Positions 9,805 to 45,150 of a stretch of 64,000 nt of DNA are shown in pieces; position 1 is the stretch's first letter, and every line of letters begins with the position of its first letter. The position numbers and the translations under genes are program-made. The notes beneath the pieces were generated by a model. The model was not told the DNA's origin. It searched no databases and saw only the letters and a program-made list of their open reading frames with translations. This DNA comes from Warburgia ugandensis (taxonomy: Eukaryota; Streptophyta; Magnoliopsida; Canellales; Canellaceae), in assembly GCA_035236585.1 (NCBI GenBank), contig CP141135.1, positions 5,056,001 through 5,120,000 on the forward strand. Direction: 5' to 3'.

Positions 9805-11622
9805 ATGGCAAACCTAGGTAGTTTCCAGAGGTCAGATAGTAACGGTAAAACGGTTCTCCTTCGCAACAATTCGGAAAAACGGATGGAGAATGGTAAGGTA
9901 GTTGGAGAAGCATCGGTTCGACAAGATTTTGAGGGTTTGAGTGTGTCGAAACGGCTTGTGAGAAGTCTTAGTCAGAGATTGAGGAAGAAGACTCAGACAG
10001 GTAATGCAGAAGAAGAGAGAAACGAGAGAAGGATTTCTTCCGCCTGCCTATGTTTGGTTGGGAAAGGTGGTGGTTGTAGAGTAGGAGCCGATACTTCTGA
10101 TGAGTTTGGAGATGGAAATGGCAGAAGGAAGTCGAGTGCTGGAGAAGAATGTAGTGGGTATAATGTAATTTCAGGGTTTGAGGAAGCGAAAGCAGATTGC
10201 TTCTCGTATGCCATGGCTGAGAGATTGTGGAGGAATAGTAGAAAGAAGAAGGAAATTGAACTCCCCCCACCTAGAGATGCATTGCAGTTTTCACTCCCTG
10301 ATGAATTACTGGAAATGTGCTTGGTCAGGCTCCCGCTGACTGCTCTCATGACTGCTCGTCTAGTCTGTAAGAAATGGAGAGCTTTGACAATGTCACCACA
10401 TTTTATGCAGAAGAGATTGGAGGGTTGTCATCAGAGTCCATGGTTGTTCCTGTTTGGTGTGATAAAGGATGGTTATTGTGGTAGGCAGATACATGCATTG
10501 GATGTTTCTCTTGACCGATGGCACAGAATGGATGCCGATGTTCTTGATGGTAGATTTTTGTTCTCTGTTGCAAGTGTTGGGACTGAGGTTTATGTTGTGG
10601 GTGGTTGCTCCAGCCTGAGTAACTTTGGTAGGGTTGATAAGAGCTTGTACAAGACCCATAAAGATGTGCTGGTGTTTAGTCCCATAACCAGATCATGGCG
10701 CAAAGCTGCATCAATGAGGTCAGCTAGATCAGAGCCTGTATTAGGAGTTTTTGAGGTCGATTCTGATTGCTCAATTTTTCATAGTAGGCAGGATTGGCGA
10801 GATCAGCGTCGGACCAAGTCAAGGTTTCGTGGTGTGTCTGATATCTACGAGGATCCTCATAGACTTTCACTTAGACGTCAACTTGGGGATCCTTGTGTTG
10901 ATGGTGAATCTTCTTCAGAATCCAGAAGAAAGCCTTGCAAGTTTGTCAAACAAGAAGACAATCAGTATGGTTCAAAAGGCACTAGGAGGTTTCTTTTGAT
11001 TGTTGTGGGTGGTCTAGGATCTTGGGATGAGCCTGTAGATTCTTGTGAAATTTATGATCCTGTATCTAATAAATGGATGGATATTGCTCGATTGCCTGGA
11101 GATTTTGGAGTTGCTTGTTCTGGTGCTGTTTGTAATGGGATGTTTTATGTTTACTCGGAAACAGACAAGCTGGCAGGATATGAATTAGAAAGGGGCGTCT
11201 GGGTGAGAATTCAGACTGCTCATTCCCCTTGTCATCTTCATGAATATTACCCAAAACTCGTATCTGGCGATGGGAGATTGTTCATGCTCTGTGTGTCTTG
11301 GTGTGAAGCAAATGAACATATGGACAGTAGAAATAAAGCTGTAAGAAAGCTATGGGAGTTAGGTCTTACTTCACTTGCCTGGACTGAGATCTCAAGGCAT
11401 CCAGATGCACCTATGGACTGGAATGCTGTATTTGTTGCACATAGAGATAAAATATTTGGAGTTGAGATGTTCAAGGTATTTGGTCAGGTGTTGGACTTCT
11501 TGACTGTGTGTGATGTATCTTATCCAGGACTAAAGTGGGAACATATCTCAAGGCAGCATCTGGTGCATGAAGTGGATTCTTCTTCTTGCATGACAAAGTC
11601 AATGGCGGTGCTGCATCTCTGA
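9805..11622 (+). CDS. CFK1: F-box/kelch-repeat protein, CFK1-like
   Basis: Predicted SCF substrate receptor of 605 residues in one exon. The open frame extends 15 nt upstream but has no ATG there, so translation starts at 9805 (MANLGSFQRSD). The N-terminal region is basic and contains LSVSKRLVRSLSQRL. The F-box lies at about residues 162-205 (FSLPDELLEMCLVRLPL, VCKKWRAL), and kelch-type blades follow (VYVVGGCSS; LLIVVGGLGSWDEP near residue 400; NGMFYVYSETDKLAGYELE). The C-terminal phrases KAVRKLWELGL, HPDAPMDWNA and VEMFKVFGQVL are specific to the Arabidopsis At5g42350/At5g42360 group. At5g42350 is CFK1, reported to bind the COP9 signalosome and promote turnover of the DNA methyltransferase DRM2. 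Family assignment is firm; orthology to CFK1 rather than its paralogue is inferred. No frameshift or internal stop is present. Confidence 0.95.
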   Translation: MANLGSFQRSDSNGKTVLLRNNSEKRMENGKVVGEASVRQDFEGLSVSKRLVRSLSQRLRKKTQTGNAEEERNERRISSACLCLVGKGGGCRVGADTSDEFGDGNGRRKSSAGEECSGYNVISGFEEAKADCFSYAMAERLWRNSRKKKEIELPPPRDALQFSLPDELLEMCLVRLPLTALMTARLVCKKWRALTMSPHFMQKRLEGCHQSPWLFLFGVIKDGYCGRQIHALDVSLDRWHRMDADVLDGRFLFSVASVGTEVYVVGGCSSLSNFGRVDKSLYKTHKDVLVFSPITRSWRKAASMRSARSEPVLGVFEVDSDCSIFHSRQDWRDQRRTKSRFRGVSDIYEDPHRLSLRRQLGDPCVDGESSSESRRKPCKFVKQEDNQYGSKGTRRFLLIVVGGLGSWDEPVDSCEIYDPVSNKWMDIARLPGDFGVACSGAVCNGMFYVYSETDKLAGYELERGVWVRIQTAHSPCHLHEYYPKLVSGDGRLFMLCVSWCEANEHMDSRNKAVRKLWELGLTSLAWTEISRHPDAPMDWNAVFVAHRDKIFGVEMFKVFGQVLDFLTVCDVSYPGLKWEHISRQHLVHEVDSSSCMTKSMAVLHL

Positions 11623-20967: not shown

Positions 20968-23900
20968 TTACCCCATTTTATGGAAAATACCAGAGAAGTT
21001 TGGTATCTTGTCCACGTGCTTCAGTGCGCGTTCAGCTATTTGCCTGGTCTGATAGTCGCCACTTCGATAGGCATCAACAAGGGCTGTGGCCACATTCTGA
21101 TCACCAGAAATTTCATATGCTATGTCTTCAATTCTTAGGATCCTCTCCACAGCCCATATTGCCCGCTGCAGGAGAATATCTGTTCTGTTCTCGAGCAAGA
21201 TATCGAATATTGGCTTGATTCCCTGAGCATCATCCAAGACTAGTACTCCTTGCTCAGTATCGACTTCGTCATCCAACAGTGTGCATAGAGCTGCCAGCAC
21301 TGCCTCAACTACTTTCTCATTTGTGTGATCCAAGCAAGCTACCAATTTGACTACTGCTTTTCCTTCCAATAGACAAAAAGACTCCTTCAATGAGCAGAAA
21401 CCATGGTGAACCCGACAACTCCCTGTGACTGCTGGCTGCTGGCTGAAACATGGAAAGATTGAACAACAAAAGCCCTTTTCTGGCACCTCAGGCATTTTAC
21501 TGAGACGCTTAGACTCTTGGGAAAGGTTCTCTAATGCCATTGCAGACACTGTCTGAACCTTGTCAAGGCCGTTGGCCTGTAGCAGATCCATGAACAGGGC
21601 GGCAAGGTTGTGGTCACGGGCAAGTTTGATCGCTTCAGGCACATCACCCAAAACAAATGTGAGTCTTGCTAGAACTTGAACAAGCCCTCCCAGATATGGA
21701 GTGACAAAGCGGCTATGGCTGGTCTCCCCTTGCCGGATCCTTACTACTTTAGAAATGACCAATTCAAATGTGCCTTCATCTAGGAGCCTCCGTGTGAGGC
21801 CTGAATCTCTCTCTGGAAGGTCAGCTAACAGGCCGATGGCAGCTGCTTGCTCTTCTGTGATTCCATCTGTCTCAGAAATGACTTTGATCAGACTGCCAAG
21901 TTGGCCAGCAGTACCACAAAGGGAATCAGCTAGTTCTTGACCCATATGAGCTGAGAGATGGTGGAGAAGTTTTAATGAAGCTAGTCGCAGATCCTTCTGT
22001 GGAGTCTCAATAAACTGAATCAAGCTGATAGTAGCCCCAGAACTTCTAATGGCAGTAACTACGTATTGAACAGTCACAGGAGAAGCAGTTAGACCGACAA
22101 GGACCTGAAGAAGCTTGCACTCAATGGCAGGCCCAGTATTACTGATCAGATGAAATAGGTTGTGGATTATGTCTTCTGACACCAGCGTCTGGTTATTTGG
22201 ACCAATAGGAACTGATTCGAAATCACAGCCTGATTTCACTACATTGGCAAGAACTGTTGCAGAGACCTCTTTCAACTTCATAGGGAATTGATTGACACCA
22301 ACAGTGAAGAGGTCCTTGACAAGTGGTGGGAGAATTCCAGCTTCTATTAATACTTTGGCACTTGCTTCACAGGACGAAATCTGGTTCAGAGCCTTCAAGG
22401 CTGCTTCTCTTGCCTGCATGCTTCCACCTCTCATGACATCGACTAGTGATGAACCCACTGTCTGAGCTACGAAAACCTTTAAATCATTGCTCAGAACAAG
22501 CTCACCCAAGTATGATGCCATAGCCAATTTTGTTTCAGGTGAACCTGTATCAGTCCCCAGGCAAATGGTGAGATTGATAATACGATAACTAGATAACTTA
22601 GGAGAGTTTCCTTGAAATATAAAGATTACTTCCCACTGGCAAATGGTTGCTACAAAAGCTAAATATGGCGATAAACTTTTACAGTTATTCTATGATTATT
22701 GAAAGACGTTGTTCTAAATAACATATTTACAAAGAAACATGTCCATATATATAAGATGTGTTACTAAATTAGACCAGAATAGAGAATAGATAAGTAAAAT
22801 GAAGTGACATTTTCATATCCTGAACTGATATTAGTCACCATTTTGCACATCTAAGATAATAAGTTTCTAAAACGGACCTTCCCTTTTACACTCTCATAGA
22901 AGATGACTGTGACATAATATACTCGATATCTGCAACTGATATTTTCTTTAGTCCTAATTTGCAAGCAAATTAGGCAAGTATCATCACCATTATTCATAAA
23001 TTTGCATGATGTCAAGTGGCCAAAGAGGGAAAAAGATCCTCTGCCTTCTAAAATTGTGAGAGTGATTAGACCATTGCGACACGAAATGGGTACTTTGTGT
23101 ATTCCCATAGCTTCCATCTGTTCCATTAATGAGAATAAGAGGATAATCCAATTCATCCTCCCAAGAAGAAGGGGTTGGTTAAGATTCAGAGTCCCTAAAT
23201 CCAACATTCAATCATTTAAAAACAAGAACCTGTTAACTCATATTTAGAAACAAATTCATAAAAGTAGCTGATATTGATTGAAGGAAAATAAGGCATTTAA
23301 TAGTTTTACTAATGACCAATAGAAAAAGATCTCCAGGCAATATTATTGTCTATTTATTGAATGAAAACAGGTCAACAACATTGACTCAATTTTCTAAAGG
23401 AACGTAGGAGGCTAGAAGTTTAAAGGTGCTAGAGGCAAGAAGTACCTTCAAGGAGGAGATTAAGAAGAGGCTGCAGTTTACCATTTTCAGCCATCTGCCT
23501 CACATTTTTCTCACATTTCTCCAGATTCTCCAATGTTCTGTCTGCTTTCTCAACAGTCAAAATATTTTCTGATTTACTGCTAGTCATCCCAACTAATATA
23601 AGAATCGCCCCATTCACTTCACCAATCTTTTCACACAAAGATTCACACTTTGAAAGTTCATACAACAAAGACACAGCTTCCTCCCTCTCCTGTGAAAGCT
23701 CATGCGACAAGAATTTAACAATTGTGCGAATAGTGTCTCCTTCAGCCACTGCTTCCTGCAAAACAAGGAAACACCTTTAGAACAGTAAAAAGGCACACAT
23801 GTTCATGAAAAAGTGGAATATGCACAACCGAAAGAAAACAAGCAAACCTGTGAACAACCTTATTGTCAACATCCTCTTCTGCCACTATGCGAAGTGTTTC

Positions 23901-24413
23901 TAGTGCTGTGCACCGAACTTTCCTGCTGCTGCTCTTCAACATGTCAACAATCAATGGTATTAACTCTGCATTACGGACAACATGTTTATTGGATCTGCAT
24001 TTTTGGCAAATATGCTGGACATATTTTAAGGTGCACAAAACAACATTTTCTGAACTGCCTAGAGACAGAGATCTACTGGCAATATCAAGCTGAGCAGCAT
24101 CATTTCTTGCAGTCCATTCTTCAATGGTATGACGCAGAGCAATACTAGGGTTCAGATCAGTGCTCTTTAGTTCTTTCAATGTCAGTGGGCAAACAGGCTT
24201 CCTTCCACTCTCCTTGCATTCCTTGAACCACTTTTCAATTGCTTCCCGCTCAAATGTTTGCCCATTTTCTAAGGTAACAGGATCTCTCATAACTTGTTTT
24301 GTAAGAGGGCAAACAAACGAATCATAAATAGGTTCAACACGCATTCTTTCGAGCTGATAGCTCTCATCAGATTGGTTACCTGCGTCATAACTTCCTCCCC
24401 AGCTTTCAGCCAT
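20968..24413 (-). CDS. PUB43/44: U-box/ARM-repeat E3 ubiquitin ligase (PUB43/PUB44 group)
   Basis: Coding exons on the minus strand: 24,413-23,859, 23,755-23,446 and 22,544-20,968. They join in frame to 813 codons, the usual length for Arabidopsis PUB43 and PUB44 (SAUL1). Junctions are AAG/GTTGTT, GAAG/GTACTT, and acceptors TTTTGCAG/GAAGC and GATACAG/GTTCAC. The first donor choice rests on conserved protein sequence, because a nearby CAG/GTTTGC would shift the frame. The U-box is at about residues 30-103 (YDSFVCPLTKQVMRDPVTLE, CPLTLKELKSTDLNPS). Armadillo repeats fill the rest (EGDTIRTIVKFLSHELSQ, AVSLLYELSK, NGAILILVGMTSSKSENI, VRQMAENGKLQPLLNLLLEG). The C-terminus is RQIAERALKHVDKIPNFSGI. 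SAUL1 acts at the plasma membrane and suppresses premature senescence and autoimmunity. That role is inferred from the family. No lesion is seen. Confidence 0.95.
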
Positions 24414-27400
24414 ATTATCTGGGAAGTTTACTGAAAGAAAGACAAGCACGTTCAATTAGTCTTTCTCCGCAAATCATCGAATTACAACTAAGCATAACAA
24501 GCCAGCTCTACTAGAATAGCACATTTATGCATTGGAAGTCAGCATTTGGAACATAGCATATGTCCATTAACTCAGCACAACAAGTACACAACTCCATGGA
24601 ATGGAAGGTGCTTATAGAGTTATTCTACTCAAGTTCCTATAAGTTCCATTCTTGGTTGTATCTCTTGTTTTCATTTAGTTTTCTTTTTCACTGTTCCTTA
24701 AAAGAAACAAGAACAGTACGTGGCTTTGATTTTTCTGGAAACATGCTGGGTTTAGGTTGATCACACCAACAGAGACACGAAAAAGAGCATTATAATTTTT
24801 GACTATAATAACCTTATCTGTCATCCTAAAGCACCTTAACGAGGTCTTATATAAACAATCACACCATAGAGCTCAATTTAACAATACAATGTGTGGCAGT
24901 TAGCTTATTGCTAGTTAATAGCTTGCAGTGATAAGGAAGACATGATTAGTTTCATACTCTGAACTGTTGTTTGAGTAACCTGGCCTTAGCTTATATCTCA
25001 AATTAGTGACACTTGAACTAGCTGGTGCAGAGTGATTGATAACTAGAAGCTACTATGCTTGCGAGGAGGAGAAGTTTTAGGATGATAACAGAATGAAATT
25101 TTATTCTTTATGTCTTAGGCTCGTGCCACTACTTTAAGTCTGCTGTTACTGCAACAAAAACCAATGGTTAATCATAATTTCAACCTTCCACCTTGAAATT
25201 TTCAAATCAGCTGCTTTTTCTCCCTGCTGGACTACATTAAAAAAATCAAAGACATGACTAAGAGAGGTTTAAGGAATCTTATTCTAAACCGTAAATACTC
25301 TTAAGAAGCTTAAGTATTTTCAAGAATGACTGGATATCATAACAGTGAAACTATGGACAGTTTGATGATTGCTAGATGTATTTCTCAGCAGCATCACACA
25401 CAAACTTGGACCCATCACCTGTGACAATTGATTAGGGCACATTTACAATGTGCTCAGACATGTACAAGATGAGGCCATTTTCATCTCAGTCTCATTACCT
25501 AACATGCTAACAAAGAAATAAACCCTAATCATGAAAGATTGAACATTGATACAAACTGGAGGCAAGGGCTTGCCATGTTTTCTCTCATGAGTCGTCATTC
25601 TATCACTATGAATCTGAATTTATACCAACTCTGGATAGGGAATTATGGAACCTAGTCATAGAATATCAGCGCAGCAGCAATTAGAAACTTCTGTTGGAAA
25701 ATAAGATTAGATGCTTCTAGGACTTCCAAAAGGACAGGTATTGGAAATCCTACATTCCTTGAGAGAAGTCCCTAAAGAGATTTGGAGGAAACAAGGGAAC
25801 ATCAGGACTGATGACAGTGCTCAAAGAGGATCTTTCTAGCAGTAACTGCATACCTGAAGTTGCAGACCACAAAAATAAAAGGTAAAGTTTTGAAATTTTA
25901 TTTAATAATCATCCTAAAATCACCCCTTCTCAGACAATTCGTGATGTCTAAAAACAGATCTTATGCACAAAGATTCATTCAGTTTACTTGACTCATCCAA
26001 GAGACATGCTTACACGGACATTGGTGTGTTTGAAACCTTTGCACCTTAGCATTTATTGAATGAGAACTCAGAAAACTCATCAACTTCTTTTACAGAGTCA
26101 TTTGGGCTTGAGCAATTGCTTAGTTGGTGAAGACGTGAGGTGTCTCATTCCATAATCATTAGGTTGTGGGTCCAACTCTCCTTACCTAAATAAAGAAAAA
26201 GCTCATCAGCTTCATTAGTTCAGCCGGTTGATCAACTAGATTGATGTGCAAACTTTAAGCTAAACCTGAAAGCAGGTTTTTCTGATTCTCCACAATCAGT
26301 TCGTAACATAACCCCAAACCCTTTCCTTCTGATATCATTCTCCAAGACCTAGGATCACTTTACCTTTAGGTTGATGGTTCTAGCATTAAAACAGACAAAT
26401 ATCTCCACAGTTTGTTATTCTATACCATAAATTTTTTGTCTTTAGGCATAATCACGAAATCTGGAAATCAATTCTTAAAGGTTCAAAAACCAGAAAATCC
26501 AGGGCCAAGATCGTACGCTTCTTAACTCTGGGTGAAGAGTAAGCAAACCTAGATATGACCTTTCTTTTCCTAGCTTTTTCTCCTTCTAAGTAGGAAATAT
26601 GTCAAGACTAAAGGCCTCTGCAAATGAAATATTCGTGATTGTAGGGAATCATGTGTCATAAAAACAATTGGATGTAGGAAGAGTAATCTGAAACGCTTCA
26701 GATAGCAAAACAAATAGTTATGCTATCTCATTGGGACTTTGCTTGCTTGTAAGCCATCATCATAAGCTGATTGTCAAAGCTGCATCATTAAGTAGTTACA
26801 GCTGATTCAGCGTCTCAGAAATTTTCTGGCCCCTTGACATGACATGACTGAAACTAAAAGAAGTAAGGAAGAATAATAATGTGGCAAATGCAATAGCAGA
26901 GCTCTACAAAGCCAGAAAGCCCTTTGAGATGATGACCAGTCTAAGATATAACAAATTCTATGATTGCCCAATAATCCAGAAAGTTTGGTCTCTGTCTACA
27001 CTTGCTAAAAGATAGTTCGGATTCAGTTACCAACAAAGGAATCACATTACATGATAGAAGACGCAGGCAACGATTTGGATTCACAATAGAGAAAGGAATG
27101 CCATCATGGTGGCATAGTTGGCTTCTATTGTTCATATGAGAGTAGCTAAGCAAGAAAATGATTCAGATTCTCATTACAAATGCCCAAAAACATTATTTCA
27201 CATGCGATTTCTTAGTTTAGCAAGGATCAATTGAAGGCAGTCATTGCATAAAGTTCGAATCAAGTTGAATTCCAGGGGACTATCAACTATCCGGTATCGA
27301 CCTAGTCACAGTTCCCCATAATTAAGATCAAAATTATACTTCCCAATGTAATTCAGATGCAAAAACATTAAAACTTTCCCATAATAAGATCAATATTTTA

Positions 27401-31425: not shown

Positions 31426-31872
31426 AGTTAGTAATATAAGAAGTGTCATTATCAAATACAATAGCATTGGCTAATAACACCTAGTGCAGCTGGCTACAGA
31501 CAACAAGGCATCAATCTTGGAACGTGCTTCGTTGCAGGTTCTCGTTGCTACTTTCTCATTTGGCTAGGAATTAGATTTTGGAGAGAGAATAAGTGATTTA
31601 GCCCAGCAATTTTTCATTTGCACGCACACACACACACACGAGGCATTGATATCATTTGCCTAAGGTAATACCAGAACAATATAAAAGAAAAAAAAAAAGC
31701 AGAAAATCTTAAGGGGAATTGGAGATTTGAAAATTAAATAAAAGATAATCTTAATTTGGTTAAGTCAGTCCAATCATATGCTATTTGCCTGGTTTTCTTT
31801 TGCTTTAAGTATCTCCCTACAAGATGGTTTATGAGTTGGTGGGATTAAGGTAGGGGTGGCAATTCGGGTTGG

Positions 31873-32075
31873 CGGGTCGTGTTTGTGGCGACACGAACAC
31901 GACACGAATAGTGTTACGGGTCGACACGAACACGACACGCTTAATAGTCGTGTCAAAAACCTATGACTCGTACACGACCCGGTTCTTAAAAAAATGACAC
32001 GACACGACCTGTGTAACACGATTAATTAATTGAGTCGTGTTGGATACACGACACGAAATGACACGACACGACCCG
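31873..32075. repeat. Left subterminal GACACG repeat region of hAT
   Basis: Dense direct and inverted copies of ACACGACACG, CGTGTC and CGGGTCG directly inside the left terminus. Such motif clusters are where hAT transposases bind. The mirror region lies at 44,945-45,128. Confidence 0.9.
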
Positions 32076-32195
32076 ACATATTAAAAAAACTGCCCTCTCA
32101 AGTCAAGTCCCAACTCCCAAGTGAATAGAAGTTATAGAACGGCTGCCAAGGCCCGAACGGGCCAAATCCCAAAACAACCACAATAAAATAAACTA

Positions 32196-32452
32196 ACATA
32201 TAGGTCAGTTATTTCACAACCGTTCTATAAAACCCTAACATATAGGACGGTTGTAACATAACCGTCCTATATATCATTGGTTTTATACGACGACTGTGAA
32301 ATAACTGTCCTATATATATATATTACAGATTTTATAGAACGGTTGTGAAATAACCGTCCTATATGTTAGGGTTTTATAGAACGGTTGTGAAATAACCGTC
32401 CTATATGTTAGGTTTTATAGAACGGTTGTGAAATAACCGTCCTATAGTTTAC
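32196..32452. repeat. Palindromic repeat array A (6 units)
   Basis: Six units of the form TATAGAACGGTTGTGAAATA then ACCGTCCTATA, the last three nearly identical. Each unit is itself an inverted repeat (GGACGGTT against AACCGTCC). It lies between the left subterminal region and the 3' end of the transposase relic. Confidence 0.93.
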
Positions 32453-33097
32453 TTTTTATAATTTTATTCCACTCCACCGTTATGACCGATCTTCTCGATT
32501 CTCGACCGAATCGTATCTTGAATCTTTGATCACCTCAAGCAATGACAATGAGGTTCTCGGGAGCGTAAAATCAGAATTGAATAGCATGGGTCTTTCGCTA
32601 TGAAGAACTAGACTTTCAACTCAAGTTACCAAGTACCAACCCCCACATAAATTGTTAGGAGGGAATTCATTTCTCCAACTCCTTTCATGCTCATTGTCAC
32701 TGGTCATTGCTATATCCATTGAATTACTGGTGGCCGATCCACCACACCACACGACAAGTACATAGACAACCAAATTACCAATAATGTTCCCGTAATATTT
32801 TGTTATTTTATTTAGAAGCAACACGCTTCTTTATAGTTTAGTATTACACCACTCACCACTCACCGACTCACTTCACAAGTTCACAATTCACATGATATGT
32901 GAAAAAGAAGAGACTGAAATGAATCAAATAACCATAATAGTAGTAAATAAATATGGATTAAGTAGCACATGATGGAAATATACTTCCATCAATGTATTAT
33001 GTATCAAACACAACAAATTAAAATAAGTCATGAAAATTATACAAATTAATCAAAATGAATTGATCCAGAGTCTTCATTGGTTGAAGTGATCTGCTTG

Positions 33098-35685
33098 CTA
33101 CTTATGCTTATAATGTCCTCGCAAGCTCATCCACTCAAGAATCGTAATGGTAGAGTCTACAATCATATAGAATAAACAAGCATTAGTTATTACTAAGCTC
33201 ATATAAAATATAATGTAAATATAGAATTATAAACTATTACCTTTCAATCCATATAGCCAATCTCTCACACAAATCAATGCTTGCACGGTTTCCGGTTTTA
33301 AAGTAGATCTATATTGGTCAAGAACCCGACCACCAACACTAAAAGCAGACTCCGATGCAATCAGATATAGGAATGCTCAAGACATCACGAGCCATGGCAG
33401 CAAGTTCAGATACCTAAAATCAACATTTGAATCAAATATAAATGTAAATAAGATTACGTAAAATAGTGTTTACATGAGATTATTAGTCAAACAACCTCGT
33501 ATTGATTGCCTTTCCGAGAATGCAAGAATGTCTAGCTTTGACTCTTGCAATCTTGGTTCATCTAAATAAAGCTCCAATTGTGATTTTTGCATAGCCAAAG
33601 TACCTCCTTCACCTTCAAATGAATCAAATTCCTAATGCAAATGCAATTATATTATTCAACGTACGATAAGACAATTCATACTTCATAGCAAATTTTAATA
33701 TGCTAAGTAGTAAGCGACATATAATGAAAGATACAATTATAAATAAAATCACCTTCATGACATCTAATACCTCTTGACTATATGACATGTTCTCGTCTAT
33801 CATCAAGACTCGCACCTCTAGCCACTTGTGTAGATGAGGAGGAAGGAATAGGATAAATCTTAACCTTATATTCATTGAAGAGAGAGAATAACTTTTCCCT
33901 AACTTGAGCAAACTCCAAGCAGCCACCGCCAAACAATTTCATGAACGAGAAAACCACAAAGGAGAGCTAAAACCGAGGAACCAACACACATGCAATTGCC
34001 AAAATGGTGCTGAATTCAGACCAAGACTTTGAAAACTTGGCAAACATTTGGGTGGACATACGCTTCATATAGTCATCATCACTTCTCATGTATTGTGTTA
34101 AACTCAAATAAATTACAAATGCTGCACGAAAGTAGAGATTTGCAGTGGAATATTTGGATCCAGAGAACATGCAGTGGCATCATAAAAACCGCCAAAAACT
34201 TCGAAATTTTTGTAGCCTTTTCCCATTCAATGAAAGAAGGACAATGCTTATAATTTGAGTCACTTAGTTCTAAGTGACAAAATGCACGTTGGTAACAAAG
34301 AGCACTTTCAAGCATCAAATACGTTGAATTCCATCTTGTAGGACAATCTTGTCTTAAGCCCTTTTTGTCTCAATTGACATGTGATTCACACACTCTAAAA
34401 ATTTTTGTTTTCTACTTTGTGATGCTTTGACATACTTGATACTCTCTCTAATTTTTTGAATAGCATCATCAATTTCTTTCAAACCATCTTGCACAATCAA
34501 ATTCAAAACATGACAACAACAACGTAGATGAAGGAACTCTCCACCACAAACAAGAGTGTTCCTGATGTTTAATTGATGCCTTAATGACCAACAGAATCAT
34601 TAGAAGAAGCATTGTCTAAAGTGATTGAAAAAATCTTTTTCTCAATCCCCCATTCTACCAATAATGAGTATCACTTTTCTGCTAATGATATTCCATTATG
34701 TGGAGGTGGTAGGAAACAAAAATTTAATATCCTCTTTTGTAAGACCCACTGACTATCTAGAAAATGTGCTGTGAGACTTATATAACCATCAGTAATACAA
34801 GAAGTCCACAAATCCGATGTCAAACTTATGCCGCTAGGTGCCAATTCTAACATCTCTTTTATCTTTCCTTTTTCTCTTTTATACATTCTCGAACATCCGC
34901 TTTATCGTATTTGTACTAACCAAGTGCAAATCCCACGTCCAATATTTCAATAGAGTTCTAATTCCATCATACCCAACAAATTGGAAAGGCAAATCATGCA
35001 TAACAACCGCAGTGCTACTAACTCACGATAAACTTCGTGATCAAACTTATTATCCGAAGCCGCACTTAGTGACACCGACATACTCCCGACTTTGAGATAA
35101 AAGCAACCGGCCTATATCACGAGAAGAGCTCCGTTGACAAGTCTTTATATGACGATTTAAGTTACCAGTACCAAATTTGCTATCGCAAATGTATATTGCA
35201 GAGCACTTCTTGCATTTACACCTTTGCCTTCCATCTTCTGATAGAGGAAGGTGTTCAAAAAATTCCAAACCTGAGACATTAGTTTCCTATGCTTTTTGCC
35301 TCTATTGGATTTTGAAACTAACTCCACGTTCTCCAAATCAGCAAACTCATCATCATCGTTGTTGTGGTGTAGCATATTCAAGTTATCAGAAACATCGGTG
35401 CTCCCAACTTCAACTTGTGCCTATATTGCAAAATGCAAATGACAAAAAAAATTAGTTCACACCGACAAGAAACTAAACACTTCGTAGTTCACCAACAATT
35501 ACTAATAAGTAATAAGTAATAAGGGAAGGGAGTGAGTGAGTGAGACACTGAGACTTGAGAGTTGAGACTCGAGAGTGAGGAAATTGAGAGGAATGAAAAG
35601 AGTCAGACTCATAATTTCATAGAAAAATAACAAAAACAAACACATGACATACCCGTGGTGCTATAGTAGGGGTGCCGCTGCTCAT
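33098..35685 (-). pseudogene. hAT transposase relic with BED zinc finger
   Basis: The start is ATG at 35,685 (MSSGTPTIAPR), then an intron to about 35,421. The BED finger reads CKCKKCSAIYICDSKFGTGN followed by LNRHIKTC. The core includes ISLTSDLWTSCITDGYISLT, AHFLDSQWVLQKRILNFCFL, LESALCYQRAFCHLELSDSN, EWEKATKISKFLAVF, and the C-terminal dimerisation block SESAFSVGGRVLDQYRSTLK then PETVQALIC. A last small exon ends at a TAG at 33,098-33,100. Lesions: a 1-bp loss in a T run splits VWNF from FEHLP, and the frame also changes after the BED finger, after GISLAEK, and just before SESAFS. The family is Ac/hAT, close to plant zinc finger BED domain (RICESLEEPER-like) transposases. It is not functional. 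Confidence 0.92.
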
Positions 35686-35879
35686 CGTGTTAGAACTTAG
35701 AAGGGTTGATGTTTGAACTTGAAGAAGATATCTCGATTCCGGTCCTCTGAGTCCGGAAAGGGAAATCAAACAGATGTAAAATTGTAAATTATAAAAGCAA
35801 ACAGAATCGCAAACCTGCAAGCCTTCAACTTCAACCTTGGGTTGGTAACGTTGGTTATGTTACTTATGTATTACAGTAT

Positions 35880-36115
35880 TAACGGTCCTATATATATATT
35901 TATAAAATATAGTACGGTTATGTATTAACCGCTCCTATATTTAAAAATATAGAACGGTTACTTACTAACCGTCTTATTTTTTGTAAGCTTTAACATATAG
36001 GACGGTTACGGCCTAACCGTCCTATTTTACATAATAATATAGGACGGTTACGGACTAACCGTCCTATTTTACATAATAATATAGGACGGTTACGGACTAA
36101 CCGTCCTATTTTACA
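35880..36115. repeat. Palindromic repeat array B (about 6 units)
   Basis: Units such as TAGGACGGTTACGGACTAAC then CGTCCTA. The last two are identical, with the spacer 'ttttacataata'. It lies immediately 5' of the transposase relic, where a promoter would be. Confidence 0.92.
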
Positions 36116-37194
36116 CATGGTTTATTCCTTCATTACCAATCTGTGAGTGTGACTGTGAGTCCGTGAGACCGTGATCGTGAAGTCCGTGATGTGCCGATTT
36201 TCGCTTTTCAAGTGACTACCGCCTGACAAAGACTGATAGCCTTCTTTCCTCCAATTCCAAACTGGCAAGTGGCAAGTGGAGTTAATGAAAGTTGAAACTT
36301 ACACTTCAATCATTTGTCAAATATTTTGATGCCCCTAGTTATTGTCCTTAATGTTACTTAACTAAGTTAACTTACTTGTTAGATAACTTAGATTATTAGA
36401 TAGTTAGATGTCATGAATCATGATAGATGATCCTAGGTGGGGGCGGGGGGGACCCCTTGTAGACTTGTAGTGGCGGGAAAACAAAATGAAAGTTGAAAAC
36501 TGAAAAGAACATAAAGGTTTAACTTTAACTAATTAATAATTATCTAGGTATACTAACTACTAAGTCAATCTAGAGTCTAATCTAACTGTCTAAGGCAATT
36601 GTTTTGTCTTTTGTATAATTGTATTGTATCATGTAAGTTAAGTAAGCCCAAATCCAATTATCCAACTATAAGCCTATAACTATAAGTTATAAATAACTCA
36701 GATAACCAATTTCTTATCAACCATTTTCAGTTTAGCTACACATTGTCACATGTCAATTGTTACAACTTACAAGTTACACTTAGTAGATAAGTTAACCAAG
36801 TTTTGTAAGTTGTACAAGTAAAAGTGAAGTGAGAGAGAGACTAACTAACTGTCATATATTGTTGTATAAAATTATAAATGCTAATGAATAATGATTTTCT
36901 TATGTTAATTTCACATGTCTCACCAACCAATTGATCTAATATATCTCTTTTCAATCAAATTCATGAATATCATGTATCCAACTCATATAACTCAATATTT
37001 GTTTCTCATTTCTAACTCCCAATTGATGATAATAGATTAGGAATAACTCATTCATGATTCATCCATGATCCTTTGATCCATCATTCATGTAGATATTGTA
37101 GAGTAAAATTTAGTAACTCCTTTAGTAATATCATTCAACATTTGTGTTAATTCAACACACAACTCCTATTCTCTGCTCACATTCTCACCTCACC

Positions 37195-37920
37195 TAATGA
37201 GTTAATTACAATGTTACATAACTAAATAACTAATAACTATTCCCTTGGGACCCTTCCTAGTTCCTATACTATACTCATTATCCTCTAATGAGATAATTAC
37301 ACAACTCTTTCTATACTCATTCTCAAGCTACCGAGTTAATTACATAACTCTGCTTCTATTCTAGTTCAGTTCAGTCATTCTTACCTAATGAGTTAATTAC
37401 ATGATTCTTTCTCTTTCTTTACTTATTATCATTTATCAATGTTATCATCAACATTCAACAACTTTTGAATTGAGTATGAGTTACTTACATAACTTTGCTT
37501 TTTAAGATGATCCTCAAGTGAGATCATCGACATCGATGAGTTAAATACATTATATACATAATTAACACCAACTTTAGTCATCCTCCTCGACCTCAACCTC
37601 AACAACTATGTTGAATTGAATATGATAGTATGAGTTACTTACATAAGTAACATAACTTTGCTTTTAAGCCGATAGATACTCAAGTAACTCAACTCAACCG
37701 AGAAGTCCGAGCCTCGAGATAGTGAGATGAACATAATACATATATGATATATGCCTATATGCTATTGCTCTGTCTTTTTAAGCTCATCCACTATCCTTAA
37801 CTTAAGGAAATTAAGATGAGTTAATTACATAACTCTTTCTCCACTCTATACTTAATGACTAGTTTTATTTAAGGACATCATCAACTAAGATTAATTAAAT
37901 ACATAACTCTTATAGCTTAT
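37195..37920. repeat. Dispersed short palindromes GAGTTAATTACATAACTC
   Basis: About nine copies or near copies of GAGTTAATTACATAACTC (arms GAGTTA and TAACTC), for example at 37,333-37,350 and 37,818-37,835. Variants lie near 37,199, 37,290, 37,388, 37,480, 37,540 and 37,631. They are spaced 50-180 bp apart in AT-rich sequence between arrays B and C. The rest of 36,120-37,925 shows no gene. Confidence 0.7.
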
Positions 37921-37924
37921 ACAA

Positions 37925-38397
37925 CTCCTATATTTCAATATATAGATGGTTATAAACAAACCATCCTATATTTAAATATATTATAGGACAGTTATTTTAA
38001 AACCGTCCTATATTTAAATATATTATAGAACGGTTATTTTGAAACCGTCCTATATTTAATATATTATAGAACAGCTTATTTGAAAACCGTCCTATATTTG
38101 ATTATGTTATAGAACGGTTATTTGAAAACCGTCCTATATTTAAGTATATTATAGAACGGTTATTTGAAAACCGTCCTATATTTAATTATAATTATAGAAC
38201 GGTTATTTGAAAACCGTCCTATATTTAAGTATATTATAGAACGGTTATTTGAAAACCGTCCTATATTTAAGTATATTATAGAACGGTTATTGATAATCCG
38301 TCTTATATTTAAGTATATTATAGAACGGTTATTGAATAACCGTCCTATATTAGTATATCATATAGAACGGTTATTTTAAAACCGTCCTATATGGTTC
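37925..38397. repeat. Palindromic repeat array C (11 units)
   Basis: Eleven units, mostly of 42-44 bp, of TATAGAACGGTTATTTGAAA then ACCGTCCTATATTTAA. Inner units are nearly identical, outer ones more diverged. The open frame at 38,164-38,379 is a translation of the array, not a gene. It lies 5' of the right-hand (+) gene module. Confidence 0.95.
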
Positions 38398-38436
38398 TAT
38401 ACATATAATATATCGTTTTCACTTTTCACTTTTCAC

Positions 38437-39100
38437 CTTGGTCATTCTCAGCCCTAATTTCAATCTTCCAAGTTCCAACCCAACGATCCAATCCAACCTA
38501 TACTGAGAAGTGAGAAGGTGAAAACGACCATTCCTCTTCGATCTTTCACAGATCTAAGCAAAGAAAGGTATGTATTTACGATTTTTTCATCTTTAATGTA
38601 ATTTCGTATACGCTTCACTATACAGAACCGTAAAAAGTAATAAAAGAACACAATCTGATAAAAAAAAAAAAACCTCTATCTGGTTTCTCTGATCCTTGCC
38701 TTGAACTTGTTCTGTCATTTCGTTGTCAAACACCTATTTCTCATATTTTGATTTATGTTGTCTTTCATTTGAGTCCTGAAACGGGGTTTGTTGGGAAAAA
38801 GATGGATGAGCAAAAAAACGGACCCGAAGCCTGGAAGTGGAATGGGATTATGGGAGATATCAGATATGTATGTTCCTCTGACGGAAAAACCAAACATATA
38901 AATTATAAAGGTTCTGAGTCTTCTGACTTTGCCCATAGTTCATTAGTGCTGAATCAGTGAATCCTGATAGATAGGTTCTCAGAGAACTGCATCTCTTGAA
39001 ATAGTCTCCACTCTCCACTGAAATGTAGAGCGGTGATCGAGCAAGAGAAGAAGCAGACGTATGTCGAAGATTGAGGGAGAGAGACATTAAACTAGTTCTT
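38437..39100 (+). other. Possible captured leader and exon fragment
   Basis: A stretch reading VKTTIPLRSFTDLSKER ends at a good donor (AAAG/GTATGTATTT at 38,568). The same segment, with mostly coding-like changes (VETTIPLQAFADPSEEK), sits in the 681-bp hAT-type element at 55,692-56,372. Downstream, 38,802-38,920 reads MDEQKNGPEAWKWNGIMGDI then RYVCSSDGKTKHINYKG, which also looks like host-derived coding sequence. I do not recognise the source gene. Confidence 0.4.
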
Positions 39101-39734
39101 TCTTTTACAAAATGGAAAAAAACATTACCTTTATCTAATTTATCACAAACTAGCTACACTATATCCCAATTTCTTCTTGCCTTAAGGGAGCCCTAGAAAA
39201 AGAACCAAATCAAGAAAAATCTCTCAAAAACTAAATTAACATATCTCATATCTCCATCAAACAATGTCAGATTTTCAACATTTTTGATGTGTTGGAACTG
39301 TTGAAACAAGAGGAATGATTAAGTGATAGTTGACCAAAATAAAAAATAAAGGATGAAGGAACATAACAGATTTTTTAAATTATTATTAGACTGGAATGAA
39401 TGTTTTGAGATAGGAAACTTAATGAAATGGCCAAATCAAGCTACAAATAATGAATGTTATACAAAAACAAAATATCACATTTTTTTTTTCCACTCTGCAT
39501 ACTGGAATGGCATACTTCTAGGGCTATGACACTATGCCAACATCACAAAAAATGGGAACATGCATAATTGCTTGTTTGAAGAGATAGAGGGAGCAACAAT
39601 CTGACCTTGTAGGAGGCTTCCAGTATAGTCTCCACTGACAAATGAAAAATTTGTGATGGTTTTCAAGGGTGCTACTGCTTATTATCCCTGTATAATTGTA
39701 TTCCTCTTTTCTTGTCTAACTCAGTAGTCATTTT

Positions 39735-41900
39735 TATTTTGAAGCAAACATGGAGCAAGTAGAAGAGGTAGGAGAGGTACAAGAAGAACAATTACAACAC
39801 ACAGAAGCAGAACTATCAAGGCTATCAAGCACATGTCCATCAAGAACACCACCGTGGTCGGTGTCAAGAGAAAGGTCGGAGGGGCCCAACGCAAATGGAA
39901 CATATAAATAAGAGAACCTCGCTTGGAATAAAAGAAACAAGACAATTCAACACTAAAGGCCAACCGATTGGTGGTGTTGCACATGCCTATGCTAGCTTCA
40001 TATGTTGCACTTTGTTAGAAGACTTGTGCCGATATCGTTGATCGATTGGAGACATGTATCTCCACAAGTCAAAGATTCAAGATGGGAAATGGTCAAGGTA
40101 TGTAAATTCTTCCTACATATAACATAATATGTCCTTTATATTTATATGTTTTGTTTTTGTTTGCATATGAATCACAATAAGATACACAAAGTTGCCGCAA
40201 TACTCACTAGTTAGTCACTTTAACATGCTTCTTCTTTTGTTTTGTAGTCCGCCTTTGACGTATCTCGATGAGTGCAAGAAGCAAGCCTTGCTAGAGCCGG
40301 TGAAGCTTGGAGGAAATGGAAGAGTGAGCTTGCAAGGAAGTACATACTTCCAAATTCTCATGATCCTTCTACGCTTCACATGGTCCCTCAGTTGTATTCC
40401 CGCTTCATTAACCAGAAGCATGGAAACAATTTGTACAAGATAGGCTATCTCCCGATTTTGAGGTAATCACAACTTGAACTTGCCAAGCTAAATTTTGAGT
40501 CTTGTAATTATTATAATTTATTGTATTTTGAATCTTTGATCACATTACTTTGATGTCCAGGCAAAGCGTATAAAAGGACAAAAGGCTCGTGCACAAAACC
40601 ACACGCCGCACCACCTTTCAAAGGTTGGCTATGCACGATTAGAGGCGTATGTAGTAAGTATATCATGTCACATTCCATTTTTCTAATCATATTAGATTAT
40701 TATTTTTATTAACTATGACTTAGTGTCTCTTATAATCTTATTACAAGAAAGAAGGCCGGGACAACGGATCCCATCGACCGTGCTATTCTATGGAAAATGG
40801 CACATTCGAAAGGGCGTAACTCCCGTACCTTTGCCAACGAGACAACCGCAACAATTGCTTCAAGAATTGTAAGTGGTTTAAGACTTTAAGTTTTATACTT
40901 TTACTTTATTTGCATACCGCCTAGTTAAATACTTTTATACTTTTATACCCTTGCATAGTATATTATTTAAATATTACATATATAATAGTGATTTTATCAT
41001 GATATGATCTTTATGTGTGCGGGAAGAGTTGACCCAAGAACAAGAAGAAAGTGCAACTACGGGGACTCTTAGCATCGGCTGCAAAGGGGGACATCCCGTA
41101 TAGGGCAATGGGCAACAAGAATGAGCACCCTGGCCGGTAAGGGGCCAAGGTCGGGTGTTGTTCCTTCCAAATTTTTCCCCAAACAAAAGGCTCCTACGCT
41201 ACAAGAATTGGAAGAATGGAAGAAGCAAACAGTTGTGGAGATATATAGCATGGTCAAAGATCAACTATTGAAGGAACTCCAAGGTGGCCGAAGAACCTCA
41301 TGTGAGGATGTTGGCGGCCCTCAAGCTGAAGCTCAACCTCAAGTTCAACCAGCAAGAAATAATAATAGCTGCACTCCTACTCCTACTCCTCTATCAGATG
41401 AAGAGGTGGCAGAACAAGTACTCCCAATCAGTGAGGTATGTATATTCACTTGTTTAGTTTTACAATGTTACTTATTTACTTTTGTTTTTAGTTTACACTT
41501 TACATTACATCACTAATTATTATATATATGTCATTTCTCAAATGCAGGTGGGTCAGTGCATGTTGCAGCTACATACATTTGAGAACCATGTGGCTGTGGC
41601 AACACTGTACGAGGTTCGGCCCATGACTTCCGCCACCTTGCATGGTAAGTTGATGCCTCCACACACTAAGCGTGTGTGCATCACTACTGCCATTCAACCA
41701 GATGCTCCCCTTCCATTTCCAGTCGAAGGGGATGATGTTGAAACTGTTGGGGATGCAATTGGATATCATGTGTGTTGGCCAGAGAAACACATAAAACCAA
41801 TGATATCCAATTCCAAGGTACATATATACTAACTGTAGTCATGGCTTCATTTTCTCCTACCTTTTTTTAAGTCCTCCTAAACTGTTCATTGATTAATATT
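39735..41900 (+). pseudogene. Plant En/Spm-type (transposase_24-like) relic
   Basis: Exon-like pieces: 39,750-40,098 (FNTKGQPIGGVAHAYASFI, then a frame change, then RRLVPISLIDWRHVSPQVKD and RWEMVK before donor AAG/GTATGT); 40,248-40,462 (GEAWRKWKSELARKYILPNS); about 40,561-40,655 (KRIKGQKARAQNHTPHHLSK, VGYARLEAY); 40,750-40,868 (DPIDRAILWKMAHSKGRNSR); 41,020-41,435 (LTQEQEESATTGTL, frame change, KGDIPYRAMGNKNEHPG, frame change, then VVPSKFFPKQKAPTLQELEE). The order (RGQPIG, SRW, WRKWK, GRNSRTF, LTQEQEE) is that of plant Ptta/En/Spm-type proteins. At least three frameshifts are visible. The 131-residue open frame at 41,121-41,516 is one intact piece, not a separate gene. 41,545-41,818 continues open (TLYEVRPMTSATLHGK) and may be the linker to the protease. 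Confidence 0.78.
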
Positions 41901-42289
41901 GTCTGCAACATGTCGGACAGTCGGATCACGAAAAGCAGCACAAGGGGCAATTGAAGCAAACCTTGCCGCCAAGAATTCTGGCATAGTGGCAAGTGTAGCC
42001 ACATCCCACCTTCTCGTGTAGTACTAGTTCTATGTTTTTCCATAGTCACTACTCACAAGTCATAAGTCAGTAGTACTAGTTCTTTAGTTCAAAACACTTG
42101 TAAGGTGCTCACTAGTCACTACTCACAAGTCACAAGTCAGTAGTCACAATGTTATTATTGTTATATTATAAAATATTCTAATTTTACCTCACTTTGGGTT
42201 TCTTCTTTTATATCTGCTAGTATATCAAGATATGTCGTATATATTCATTACTAATTTCTAAAATGTTACATGATTACATTTACAAGTGT

Positions 42290-43603
42290 AGGTATCGGTG
42301 GAGGTTCCACCTAACACACCTCCATTCCTAAGGGTACTGCATGTGACCGGCCAATGAAGGCAACACAAATACAATGTACCCTGTAAGGATAGAGGTAGGT
42401 GTGCTTTCAAACGATGTGGTTGAGGTTCCACTCTTCAAGGAAGACCTCATAGCCATATGTAATATGGATCAATTGGAGTACATGCACATCATAGTCTATA
42501 TAGGGTACGTCGTGTAACTGCTCTATTAGAGTTAAGACTTACCAATCAATGTAACATTACTTAATACTTGCTTTTTTAATAAAACTTAATAATTATTTGA
42601 CATTAACCCAAATTTCAAATGCAGGTATTTGCATGATAGCTTGCATAGACTAGAGGTCAAGGACATTTACAAGTTCCTTGACCCTTCTCTTATCTTTCAA
42701 TTGGCCCATTTGCCTAAGGACAAACAAAGTGAAGATATCATTCCTGGTCTCATGACTTGTGCGAAGGGGCAAGCATTACTGATTCCCTACAATAGCGGGT
42801 ACGTTGTAACATAGGTTGCTTAATTATGCCATTTTAATTTCACAATTCATAGTTTCATACACATGAATACTACATCAGTTAAGATTAGAGAAAATTCAAT
42901 TGAACTATTATTTTTATAGGTCCCATTGGATGTTGCTAGGTTAGGATATGCATGGTGGCCATGCAATTTTTTTTTATTCATGTGGAGCACACATTCGGGA
43001 ACACCTTATGGAAATTATAAACAAGTAAGTCTTTATTATTCTTTTTATTATAATATAACTACTCACCTGACAACTATAATAATATTCATAATCTAATGCT
43101 TTTCAATTATATGTGTGTAGAGCATGGTATAAATGGGATGAGAGGGAAGGCATTCACCACCCACCAAAACTCAAGTAGAAGAAGGCCAAGGTACAGTTTA
43201 CTAATTACTGCTCTTTAGACTCTTTCATATAATTTTAAACCCGAACTTGTTGGAAATTATATTTTGAAACTTTTATGTTGTCTTTGGTGGCATTGTTTTG
43301 CAGTGCCCTCAACAAAAATCAGATTGGGAGTGTGGATATTATGTTCTTAGATACATGAGAACCCTCATTCGCAATGGAGTTTCAGTCTCACAATTGAGAA
43401 AGGTAACACTTAGACTTACCGACCAAAGTTGCACTTTTGGTTTGTATATTTCTTGACTTAATTCAAGATTACATGTCTAATCTCTGAACTAAGTTATTAT
43501 ATGTTTCTTGTAGGTGGATTTTGGAACCAAGAGTTACTCCCAGTTGGATCTAGATGATATTAGAATGGAATGGACAGATCATATTATGATTTTTAATTTG
43601 TAG
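42290..43603 (+). pseudogene. Ulp1-like (C48) cysteine protease relic
   Basis: Pieces with matching splice sites: 42,625-42,800 (YLHDSLHRLEVKDIYKFLDP, KGQALLIPYNSG); about 42,920-43,025 (HWMLLG, TAG stop, DMHGGHAIFFYSCGAHIREH); 43,121-43,190 (AWYKWDEREGIHHPPKLK, then TAG); 43,304-43,402 (CPQQKSDWECGYYVLRYMRT); 43,515-43,603 (VDFGTKSYSQLDLDDIRMEW, ending in TAG). The catalytic His (HWMLL), Gln (PQQ) and Cys (DWECGYY) are kept. The Asp that normally follows the strand after HW (usually in an LDS-type motif) is replaced by Tyr (FYSCG), and two in-frame stops occur. Ulp1-like genes are commonly carried by plant CACTA and MULE elements. Here the carrier is bounded by hAT ends. Confidence 0.85.
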
Positions 43604-43759
43604 TTCAGTGATGTAAAATTGTAAATGAATGTATATTATCATTCATGTATATACATTTTACTCAAATATAATACAAAGATCAGTTCATTTCAATGAATGT
43701 GTTCTATTTTTATTTTTATTGAAGTACAACTGTATCAATGTATGTGCTTTCTTTGTTTC

Positions 43760-44080
43760 AAACTTTCAAATTTCAATGATGTGATTGTGAAGTTGGTGTT
43801 TTGATCGAGTAGATGGGTTAATCATCAATTTTCAATGATGGCTTAGATCAGCAGATGGGTTGTATTGTATCATGTATGTACATACAATCTACAAATACAG
43901 TATGGGTGGTTGATATCATATCATGTATTGTATCATGTATTGGAGAAGGAGTCATATATGGAATGGAGGTTGATGATTGAAATTACCGATATATACCGAA
44001 GTTGTAGATATGATTCATATGAATATGATACCAAAAAACTTTCAAATTTCAATGATGTGATTGTGAAGTTGGTGTTTTGA
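43760..44080. repeat. 45-bp direct repeat 276 bp apart
   Basis: An almost identical 45-bp segment containing CTTTCAAATTTCAATGATGT then GATTGTGAAGTTGGTGTTTT is at about 43,760-43,804 and 44,036-44,080, downstream of the Ulp1 relic. It could be a local duplication. The remaining sequence to 44,690 has no recognised gene. Confidence 0.85.
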
Positions 44081-44694
44081 ATGGAGACTGATGGACATCC
44101 CTGCCTATACAGCAATTTCATTCATTTGTCGAGGAATGAGGATAAAATTAAAAATGCCAAAGTTCGGAATGATTGTCTGCATTGGTGCACACTGGGCCTA
44201 TTGACAATTGGAATGATATAGTCATGGAGATGGTGCTAAGTGATTGATATGTTGGGCAATTGTGATGATTGGAGCCCATGATTCTAAGCTACCAAGTTTC
44301 GACAATCGGAACACAATTATTTGTGTGAATAGAAAGAGGGATGAGGAAGTTCCACTAGTTGTAATTATATCATGTTTGCAAGCTTTCACTTATCTCGTTG
44401 CCAATCAAATGTGTTTTATCGAAGCTTGCAACCGGAAGGTCAAGTTGCTTCGGCTTACATTTCAGAAATCCGCTTCATTCGGATCTTGAATCACAGATTT
44501 GGATTATATTTTGTGAATTCTGTTTATAGTTTGTCACTCTCATGTCTTTGCTTTCTTTTCATATTCTCTAAGATGCACCCGAACGAGAACACGGAAGAAG
44601 CTGTTCCTCAGAGAATATCTTTATAGTATATGTGTGAGAATAACTCATTAACTCTTAACAGTGGCTCTAGAAGAACCCTCCATTCTCCAATATA

Positions 44695-44925
44695 ACTTAG
44701 TAATATAGGACGGTTAGTGAATAGCCGTCCTATATAAATAGTAATATAGGACGGTTTGTGAATAGCCGTCCTATATAACTAGTAATATAGGACGGTTTGT
44801 GAATAGCCGTCCTATATATAAGTTATATTATATTTATAACTACTAATATAGGACGGTTTGTAAGTAACCGTCCTATATAATATAAATACTAATATAGGAC
44901 GGTTACTCATGAACCGTCCTATATT
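44695..44925. repeat. Palindromic repeat array D (5 units)
   Basis: Five units of the form ATATAGGACGGTTTGTGAAT then AGCCGTCCTATATA. It lies between the right-hand gene module and the right subterminal GACACG region, mirroring array A. Confidence 0.94.
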
Positions 44926-44944
44926 TTCAAGTGTTAAGGTAATA

Positions 44945-45128
44945 AGGTCATGAGTGGGTCGCGTGTCAAACAGGTAGACACGACGGGTCAAATTCATTGA
45001 CTCGAACACGACACGATTTTTGGCGTGTCAATTTCGGGTCACCCGAAAATGACACGAACACGATAAGACTCGACCCGAACCCGCTAAATTCGTGTCGGGT
45101 TCGAGTCGTGTTATCGTGTCGTGTCATA
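44945..45128. repeat. Right subterminal GACACG repeat region of hAT
   Basis: Clustered ACACGACACG, CGGGTCA, GTGTCGGGTTCGAG and CGTGTCGTGTC words next to the right terminus, mirroring 31,873-32,075. Confidence 0.9.
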
Positions 45129-45150
45129 TTTTGCCGCCCCTAGATTAAGG

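Follow-up and report, generated by a model that had tools for sequence, protein, structure and literature searches.

A hAT transposon family of Warburgia ugandensis that carries a Transposase_24-Ulp1 gene and palindrome arrays

How do the ends of one transposon superfamily come to enclose a gene of the type that is associated with another? This question is raised by a 13.3-kb unit (positions 31851-45142) within a window of 64,000 nucleotides of Warburgia ugandensis DNA (assembly GCA_035236585.1, contig CP141135.1, positions 5,056,001-5,120,000 of the forward strand), where hAT ends surround a hAT transposase gene and, on the opposite strand, an En/Spm-type gene with Transposase_24 and Ulp1 protease domains. 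hAT transposons are usually short and have a single gene. A preliminary description of the locus, made from the sequence of the window, offered two explanations: either a second module was gained by a hAT lineage, or a nested element is present that no longer has ends of its own. We looked for further copies in the genome of the window itself (1,122,538,268 bases, 14 contigs). We are highly confident that the two-gene composite moves as one unit by the hAT mechanism, and equally so that the element is one member of a high-copy hAT family, the usual form of which carries two divergent genes.

Inspection of the window showed the unit to be flanked on both sides by the identical 8-bp sequence GATTAAGG (31843-31850 and 45143-45150), a perfect target site duplication. 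The terminal inverted repeats are short, 12 bp with one mismatch and the consensus TAGGGG(T/C)GGCAA; TAGGGGTGGCAA occupies 31851-31862 on the plus strand and TTGCCGCCCCTA 45131-45142 on the minus strand. GACACG-rich subterminal zones adjoin them at 31863-32090 (repeat family D7) and 44940-45130, and the word GACACG, which the plus strand of the window contains 13 times, falls 10 times in the 1-kb bins at the two ends of the element. The duplication, the ends and the matching subterminal zones had all been claimed in the preliminary description, and all were confirmed. By the tested features the element belongs to the hAT superfamily.

The first 300 bp of the element gave 40 scored places among 2,176 first-look candidates, those listed all showing 100% identity (rounded), while the first 61 bp have 112 exact copies genome-wide (control: 0). 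From the 39 listed places besides the window the first 20 were sampled, a 10-kb stretch being taken from 4.4-14.4 kb inside each. Exons of the Transposase_24-Ulp1 gene are present in 19 of these 20 left-end-selected copies, 18 having all 13 exons and one (L019, shortened to 7,978 bp by an internal deletion) having seven. The centre of the element was likewise found in 19 of 20, with 36400-37899 fully covered, and is missing from the stretch of L019. The right end lies within the stretch in 18 copies, 16 of them with identical 8-bp flanks; the 16 duplications are all different, and the lengths of these copies range from 13,201 to 13,417 bp. An independent draw of 20 of the 40 places matched by the Ulp1 segment, with no overlap with the first 20, contained the hAT right end in 19 copies, the left end (within the stretch fetched) in 16 and both in 15, of which 14 match in all 8 flanking bp and the remaining one in 7. 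Counted together with the window, 31 of the 34 copies with both ends in view (16/18, 14/15 and the window) have identical 8-bp flanks.

Because the same ends, perfect but different 8-bp duplications and the same order of modules recur across the copies, we regard the composite as one mobile unit. Such further insertions, with both modules in one order, are what the preliminary description had suggested looking for, and both samples contain them; together with a diverged relative that has both ends and both genes (see below), they support its first explanation, the gain of a second module by a hAT lineage. Its second, a nested element with lost ends, finds no support, as the whole unit moves with hAT ends and 8-bp duplications. 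CACTA elements have CACTA ends and make 3-bp duplications, and no pair of such ends with 3-bp duplications was seen around the right module, nor is this module lacking from all other copies of the hAT ends.

The order within the element is left end, array A1, hAT gene (leftward), array A2, a central A/T-rich region of 1.8 kb separating the two divergent genes (36116-37957), array A3, Transposase_24-Ulp1 gene (rightward), array A4 and right end. The arrays, which were absent from the preliminary description, consist of a palindrome of ~42 bp, the 12-bp arms of which, TATAG(G/A)ACGGTT and AACCGTCCTATA, enclose a spacer that is 7 nt long in most units. A1 (32204-32446) has six units and A4 (44697-44930) five, A2 (35880-36115, five units) lies 5' of the hAT gene, and A3 (37958-38392, ten units) lies 5' of the Transposase_24-Ulp1 gene. 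The arrays occur in the same order in all eight complete copies (the window and seven others), with 23-28 units per copy when up to 4 mismatches are allowed. The arms are constant, while the letters of the spacer vary by array and by relative. A strict pattern of the arms matches 3,561 places genome-wide (control: 0).

Among the listed matches of this pattern, five other stretches with palindrome clusters, from four elements and all on contig 1, were chosen by eye and thus non-randomly. Each of the five has hAT ends that are 82-95% identical to those of the window, so that the arrays can be assigned to the hAT lineage; the idea that they are CACTA remnants was rejected on the same grounds. One of these elements (C1:62,707-79,347; 16,641 bp), about 8-12% diverged from the family, has a left and a right end of 92% identity each, its own duplication GTGTTGGG, a right gene that is 87.6% identical over 4.1 kb, and a hAT-gene site at C1:65,435, which came from a pattern search with 340 places. 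A relative of 1,462 bp (L090:591-2052) has ends and arrays, shows no match to the genes and is flanked by its own duplication ATCTATAT; it is likely a non-autonomous satellite of the family. In a 5.3-kb deletion form, which has ATTGGAAG on both flanks, some of the centre (82%) and the final exons of the Ulp1 gene (88%) are retained. By this evidence both genes were already together before the sampled relatives diverged. At one locus (C8:3627921, 3628782 and 3629643; copy L033/L020) the exact left terminus is repeated three times with a period of 861 bp, a tandem left-end structure that would account for the additional 1.7 kb of L020.

The Transposase_24-Ulp1 gene spans 39750-43603 on the plus strand, its 13 exons being mapped from the sister copy L013: 39750-40097, 40248-40462, 40567-40653, 40747-40868, 41029-41435, 41548-41817, 41921-42017, 42287-42504, 42625-42798, 42920-43024, 43121-43190, 43304-43402 and 43514-43603. 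The exon limits were set by eye in L013 so as to keep the frame; with these limits, GT follows 12 of 12 donors and AG precedes 11 of 12 acceptors, and the damage in L013 consists of one frame break (exon 10) and one stop (exon 6). A spliced reading of 770 amino acids, with exons 1-9 from L013 and 10-13 from L018, matches Transposase_24 (PF03004, 3.8e-10, residues 172-304) and Peptidase_C48 (PF02902, 1.4e-10, residues 581-738). Of the Transposase_24-like plus Ulp1 relic that the preliminary description had placed on this strand, the Ulp1 part is recognisable in the window itself (catalytic stretch, PF02902, 2.5e-4), while Transposase_24 is clear only once exons are joined from sister copies. 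In the 18 copies, the catalytic triad positions, which we take to be histidine, aspartate and cysteine, are occupied by histidine in 18 and by cysteine in 16 (two are frame-shifted upstream), whereas aspartate stands at the expected place in five; in the rest this position is taken by a different residue or lies in a shifted frame. Depending on the exon, between 4 and 18 of the 18 copies have it open and in frame, some of these counts being hurt by alignment gaps at exon limits. DUF1985, the VANC-type domain, gave no match up to E 0.1 in the 770-residue reading, and general Pfam scans of the open reading frame (ORF) pieces yielded no TnpD/TNP2-type transposase, although no search aimed at it was made. 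A genome-wide search with PF03004 gave 0 matches, as did its control, and is therefore uninformative.

The hAT transposase gene, approximately 33150-35420 on the minus strand, is broken into ORF pieces in the window copy. These include a weak zf-BED (35053-35286), a hAT-like RNase-H region (33967-34179) and a C-terminal dimerisation region (33230-33376), all on the minus strand, and match PF14372 (9.8e-16) and PF05699 (1.3e-11). Longer ORFs, of 358 and 248 amino acids, are found in the sister copy L005, where the hAT RNase-H (PF14372) and dimerisation (PF05699) matches reach 5.3e-27 and 1.3e-22, respectively. The hAT domains of the "BED-type hAT transposase" previously assigned to this strand are confirmed; its zf-BED match stays under the cut-off, with 0.027 in the window and 7.7e-4 in the sister reading (19.9 bits versus a cut-off of 20.6). 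A search of PDB with the N-terminal piece of the hAT protein gave no matches. A frame-breaking 1-bp length difference is shared by five of eight hAT genes, including that of the window, and not by the other three. A pattern that spans a site in this gene has 340 genomic places (control: 0), and 88 of the 100 matches listed from these have the frame-keeping length; the shared difference is a minority form.

Both modules had been called relics. Where the 18 right portions differ, the cause is often a substitution with several alleles, or an insertion/deletion (indel) of 1-3 bp, at a CG or CHG site: the mean pairwise mismatch, arrays excluded, is 5.5% within ~5 bp of CG/CHG and 0.40% away from them, and the left portion behaves in the same manner (6.0% and 0.44%). 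The right portion of the window copy has 105 substitutions and 40 indels near CG/CHG, as compared to 10 and 7 away. Plain deamination creates no indels, while base-calling noise of the kind that methylated cytosines cause in nanopore-type assemblies would yield both substitutions and indels, and it is this noise that the crowding of the breaks looks like. Since a series of 13 exons can be read in the right gene and the differences between copies cluster at CG/CHG, the relics are probably not true relics at the level of the family. The label stands insofar as all 18 right genes are damaged as assembled, and falls insofar as the modules look broken in part through CG/CHG noise. If this holds, caution is due wherever long-read assemblies show transposon "relics", since noise at methylated sites may have made intact genes look broken.

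The same clustering affects dating. An age from raw divergence (2.4% pairwise) was rejected, as most differences are at CG/CHG. Away from these sites each copy is ~0.2% from the rest, and with a substitution rate near 7e-9 per site and year the copies may have spread ~0.3 million years ago, a figure to be taken as an order of magnitude only. Two long host-like ORFs of the window stay open (620 and 573 amino acids); long open ORFs of this kind lie at 9760-11622 (plus), 20968-22689 (minus) and 23742-24455 (minus), and by eye they include an F-box/kelch-like and a U-box/ARM-like protein. The CG/CHG assembly noise might also serve to show, roughly, where the DNA of the sequenced tissue was methylated.

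What could the second gene do for a hAT element? The hAT transposase would recognise the 12-bp ends and the GACACG zones and move the whole unit. Because the arrays stand 5' of the two genes as well as close to either end, and are kept by a relative without genes, we propose that the second protein is a putative accessory factor that binds the palindrome arrays, and that bound arrays would keep promoters and ends open against DNA methylation. The hAT lineage would then carry its own sequence-specific anti-silencing system, a Transposase_24-Ulp1 protein acting on constant-arm arrays at promoters and ends; we put this forward tentatively, by analogy with known systems, as the role that we favour for the second gene, though at a chance well short of even. 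Precedents for such a role come from the KIU/VANC proteins, which are reported to act on motifs in the non-coding parts of VANDAL elements and to cause methylation loss (PMC13317346, PMC5735166), and from Spm, where TnpA activity reportedly accompanies demethylation (PMC10398659). Within the element, CG/CHG sites are polymorphic by substitution less often in the arrays than elsewhere, both on the right side (A3, 13/60 versus 311/682, p = 3.4e-4; A4, 8/36, p = 0.006) and on the left (A1, 3/40 versus 116/344, p = 4e-4; A2, 6/42, p = 0.013), which may be read as a weak, indirect hint of methylation loss there. When gaps are included in the count, 5.3-6.1% of the CG/CHG cells deviate in A1, A3 and A4, and 8.4-14.4% in gene and interior stretches. 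The suggestion that both ends are free of methylation noise was weakened, left-end-selected copies being clean partly through their choice.

A number of observations weigh against a standing two-gene unit or against the role proposed for its second gene. One left-end-selected copy (L028) has no exon of the right gene in the stretch taken, its match ending at window position 39367, before exon 1, and two of the 18 copies with a right end in view (L019 and L027) lack matching flanks. In the 16.6-kb relative, 8.65 kb between the stretches are unread and 1.6 kb upstream of the right gene have no match to the element of the window. Shorter relatives lacking one or both genes exist. None of the 18 sampled copies has an undamaged right gene as assembled. 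A comparison of the family with the diverged relative gave a ratio of nonsynonymous to synonymous substitution rates (dN/dS) of 0.68 for 735 codons (p = 0.034), but of 1.02 (p = 1.0) once only the 486 codons away from CG/CHG were counted; with the masked value at about 1, selection on the second protein is not demonstrated. As to methylation, A2 has 14.9% deviating CG/CHG cells in the gap-inclusive count and so is not low, the alignment within arrays is uncertain, and the ends of copies that were not end-selected show deviating CG/CHG cells on the right (52/950, 5.5%, n = 19) as well as on the left (37/507, 7.3%, n = 13).

The right gene may instead be passive cargo, a transduplicated Transposase_24-Ulp1 gene of no benefit to the hAT element. 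The masked dN/dS agrees with this, so does the fact that the gene-less 1,462-bp relative still moved, and captured sequence is carried by all grapevine cut-and-paste superfamilies, hAT included (PMC2528002). Against cargo speaks that exons are retained in 19 of 20 left-end-selected copies and in a relative ~12% apart, each exon being open and in frame in several copies at least, and we rate it at somewhat under an even chance. The arrays, for their part, may be binding sites of the hAT transposase itself, the Ulp1 protein doing something else. Maize Ac has repeated AAACGG motifs, to which the ACGGTT/AACCGT of the arms comes near, A1 and A4 are separated from the nearest end by some hundreds of bases, and the 1.46-kb relative without genes keeps both ends and arrays; two of the four arrays are nevertheless central, 5' of both genes, a position that fits regulation better than end recognition. 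We regard this as a real possibility, though one that falls clearly short of even.

That the genes are true decayed relics and that the family was spread by a foreign transposase seems unlikely to us. At least one break in each of the 18 right genes as assembled, and the length difference shared by five of eight hAT genes, would agree with decay, yet breaks and substitutions crowd at CG/CHG with several alleles per site, and the shared difference is the minority among the matches listed. Far less probable still is the insertion of a CACTA (En/Spm) element into a hAT element, followed by loss of the CACTA ends, with the arrays as subterminal repeats of the inserted element. Pfam describes Transposase_24 as Ptta/En/Spm, Ulp1 is known in five grapevine CACTA families (PMC2528002), and one CACTACAA-like end lies at 36465-36472 on the minus strand, ~350 bp from A2. 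This end has no partner, and the window holds five such 8-mers on both strands against about two expected by base count; moreover, arrays are also found outside the right module and in hAT relatives, and the unit moves with 8-bp hAT duplications. With its lone end unpaired, a nested CACTA element was rejected as the present state of the locus, although an old CACTA insertion could be the original source of the right gene. The reading that we prefer remains that of a hAT family with two genes that move together.

A large hAT family that has spread with a second gene, of the En/Spm type and with Ulp1, as a permanent component would represent a new architecture. Among the texts seen in searches of the open-access literature, there was no report of a hAT element with such a gene. 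The element shares with the Ac/Tam3-like members of the hAT superfamily the 8-bp duplications, short inverted ends, and RNase-H-fold and C-terminal dimerisation domains, and differs from them in its 13.2-13.4 kb, its second, 13-exon Transposase_24-Ulp1 gene and its four palindrome arrays. The grapevine Hatvine-6 is a hAT element with extra sequence as well, but that sequence is often unique or in few copies (PMC2528002), whereas here one gene is common to nearly all sampled copies. By analogy, the extra gene may help the element escape silencing, and since the arrays, the gene and array-only relatives occur in one genome, the idea of a mobile anti-silencing system is directly testable. If it is true, short relatives that keep only ends and arrays would exploit that system.

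Ulp1 domains are carried by DNA transposons of several other types. They are known from plant Mutator-like elements (MULEs; PMC13317346, PMC2528002), from Cactavine-2, -3, -4, -5 and -13 of grapevine (PMC2528002), and, as Ulp1/C48 domains with a suggested role in transposition, from Ginger1, animal Mutator and oomycete Crypton elements (PMC2836005, PMC3212892). The last three have other types of transposase, and in Ginger1 the domain sits within the transposase. The Ulp1-bearing CACTA elements have the same domain and the Transposase_24/Ulp1 accessory gene feature in common with the present family, which has hAT ends and 8-bp duplications instead, with no paired CACTA ends in the window. TnpA of Spm, an accessory protein linked to demethylation (PMC10398659), may be likened to the product of the second gene. 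A parallel in layout is offered by the KIU/VANC-bearing VANDAL MULEs of Arabidopsis, which likewise combine a transposase gene, a gene with a Ulp1 domain and tandem motifs in non-coding parts (PMC13317346, PMC5735166), although their transposase is of the MULE and not of the hAT type, the present protein has no DUF1985 match, and demethylation is here only proposed. The family would add hAT to the superfamilies in which a Ulp1 gene recurs and, if the proposal is true, would make it a further plant cut-and-paste superfamily, after Mutator/VANDAL and CACTA, with a Ulp1-bearing gene as a standing part.

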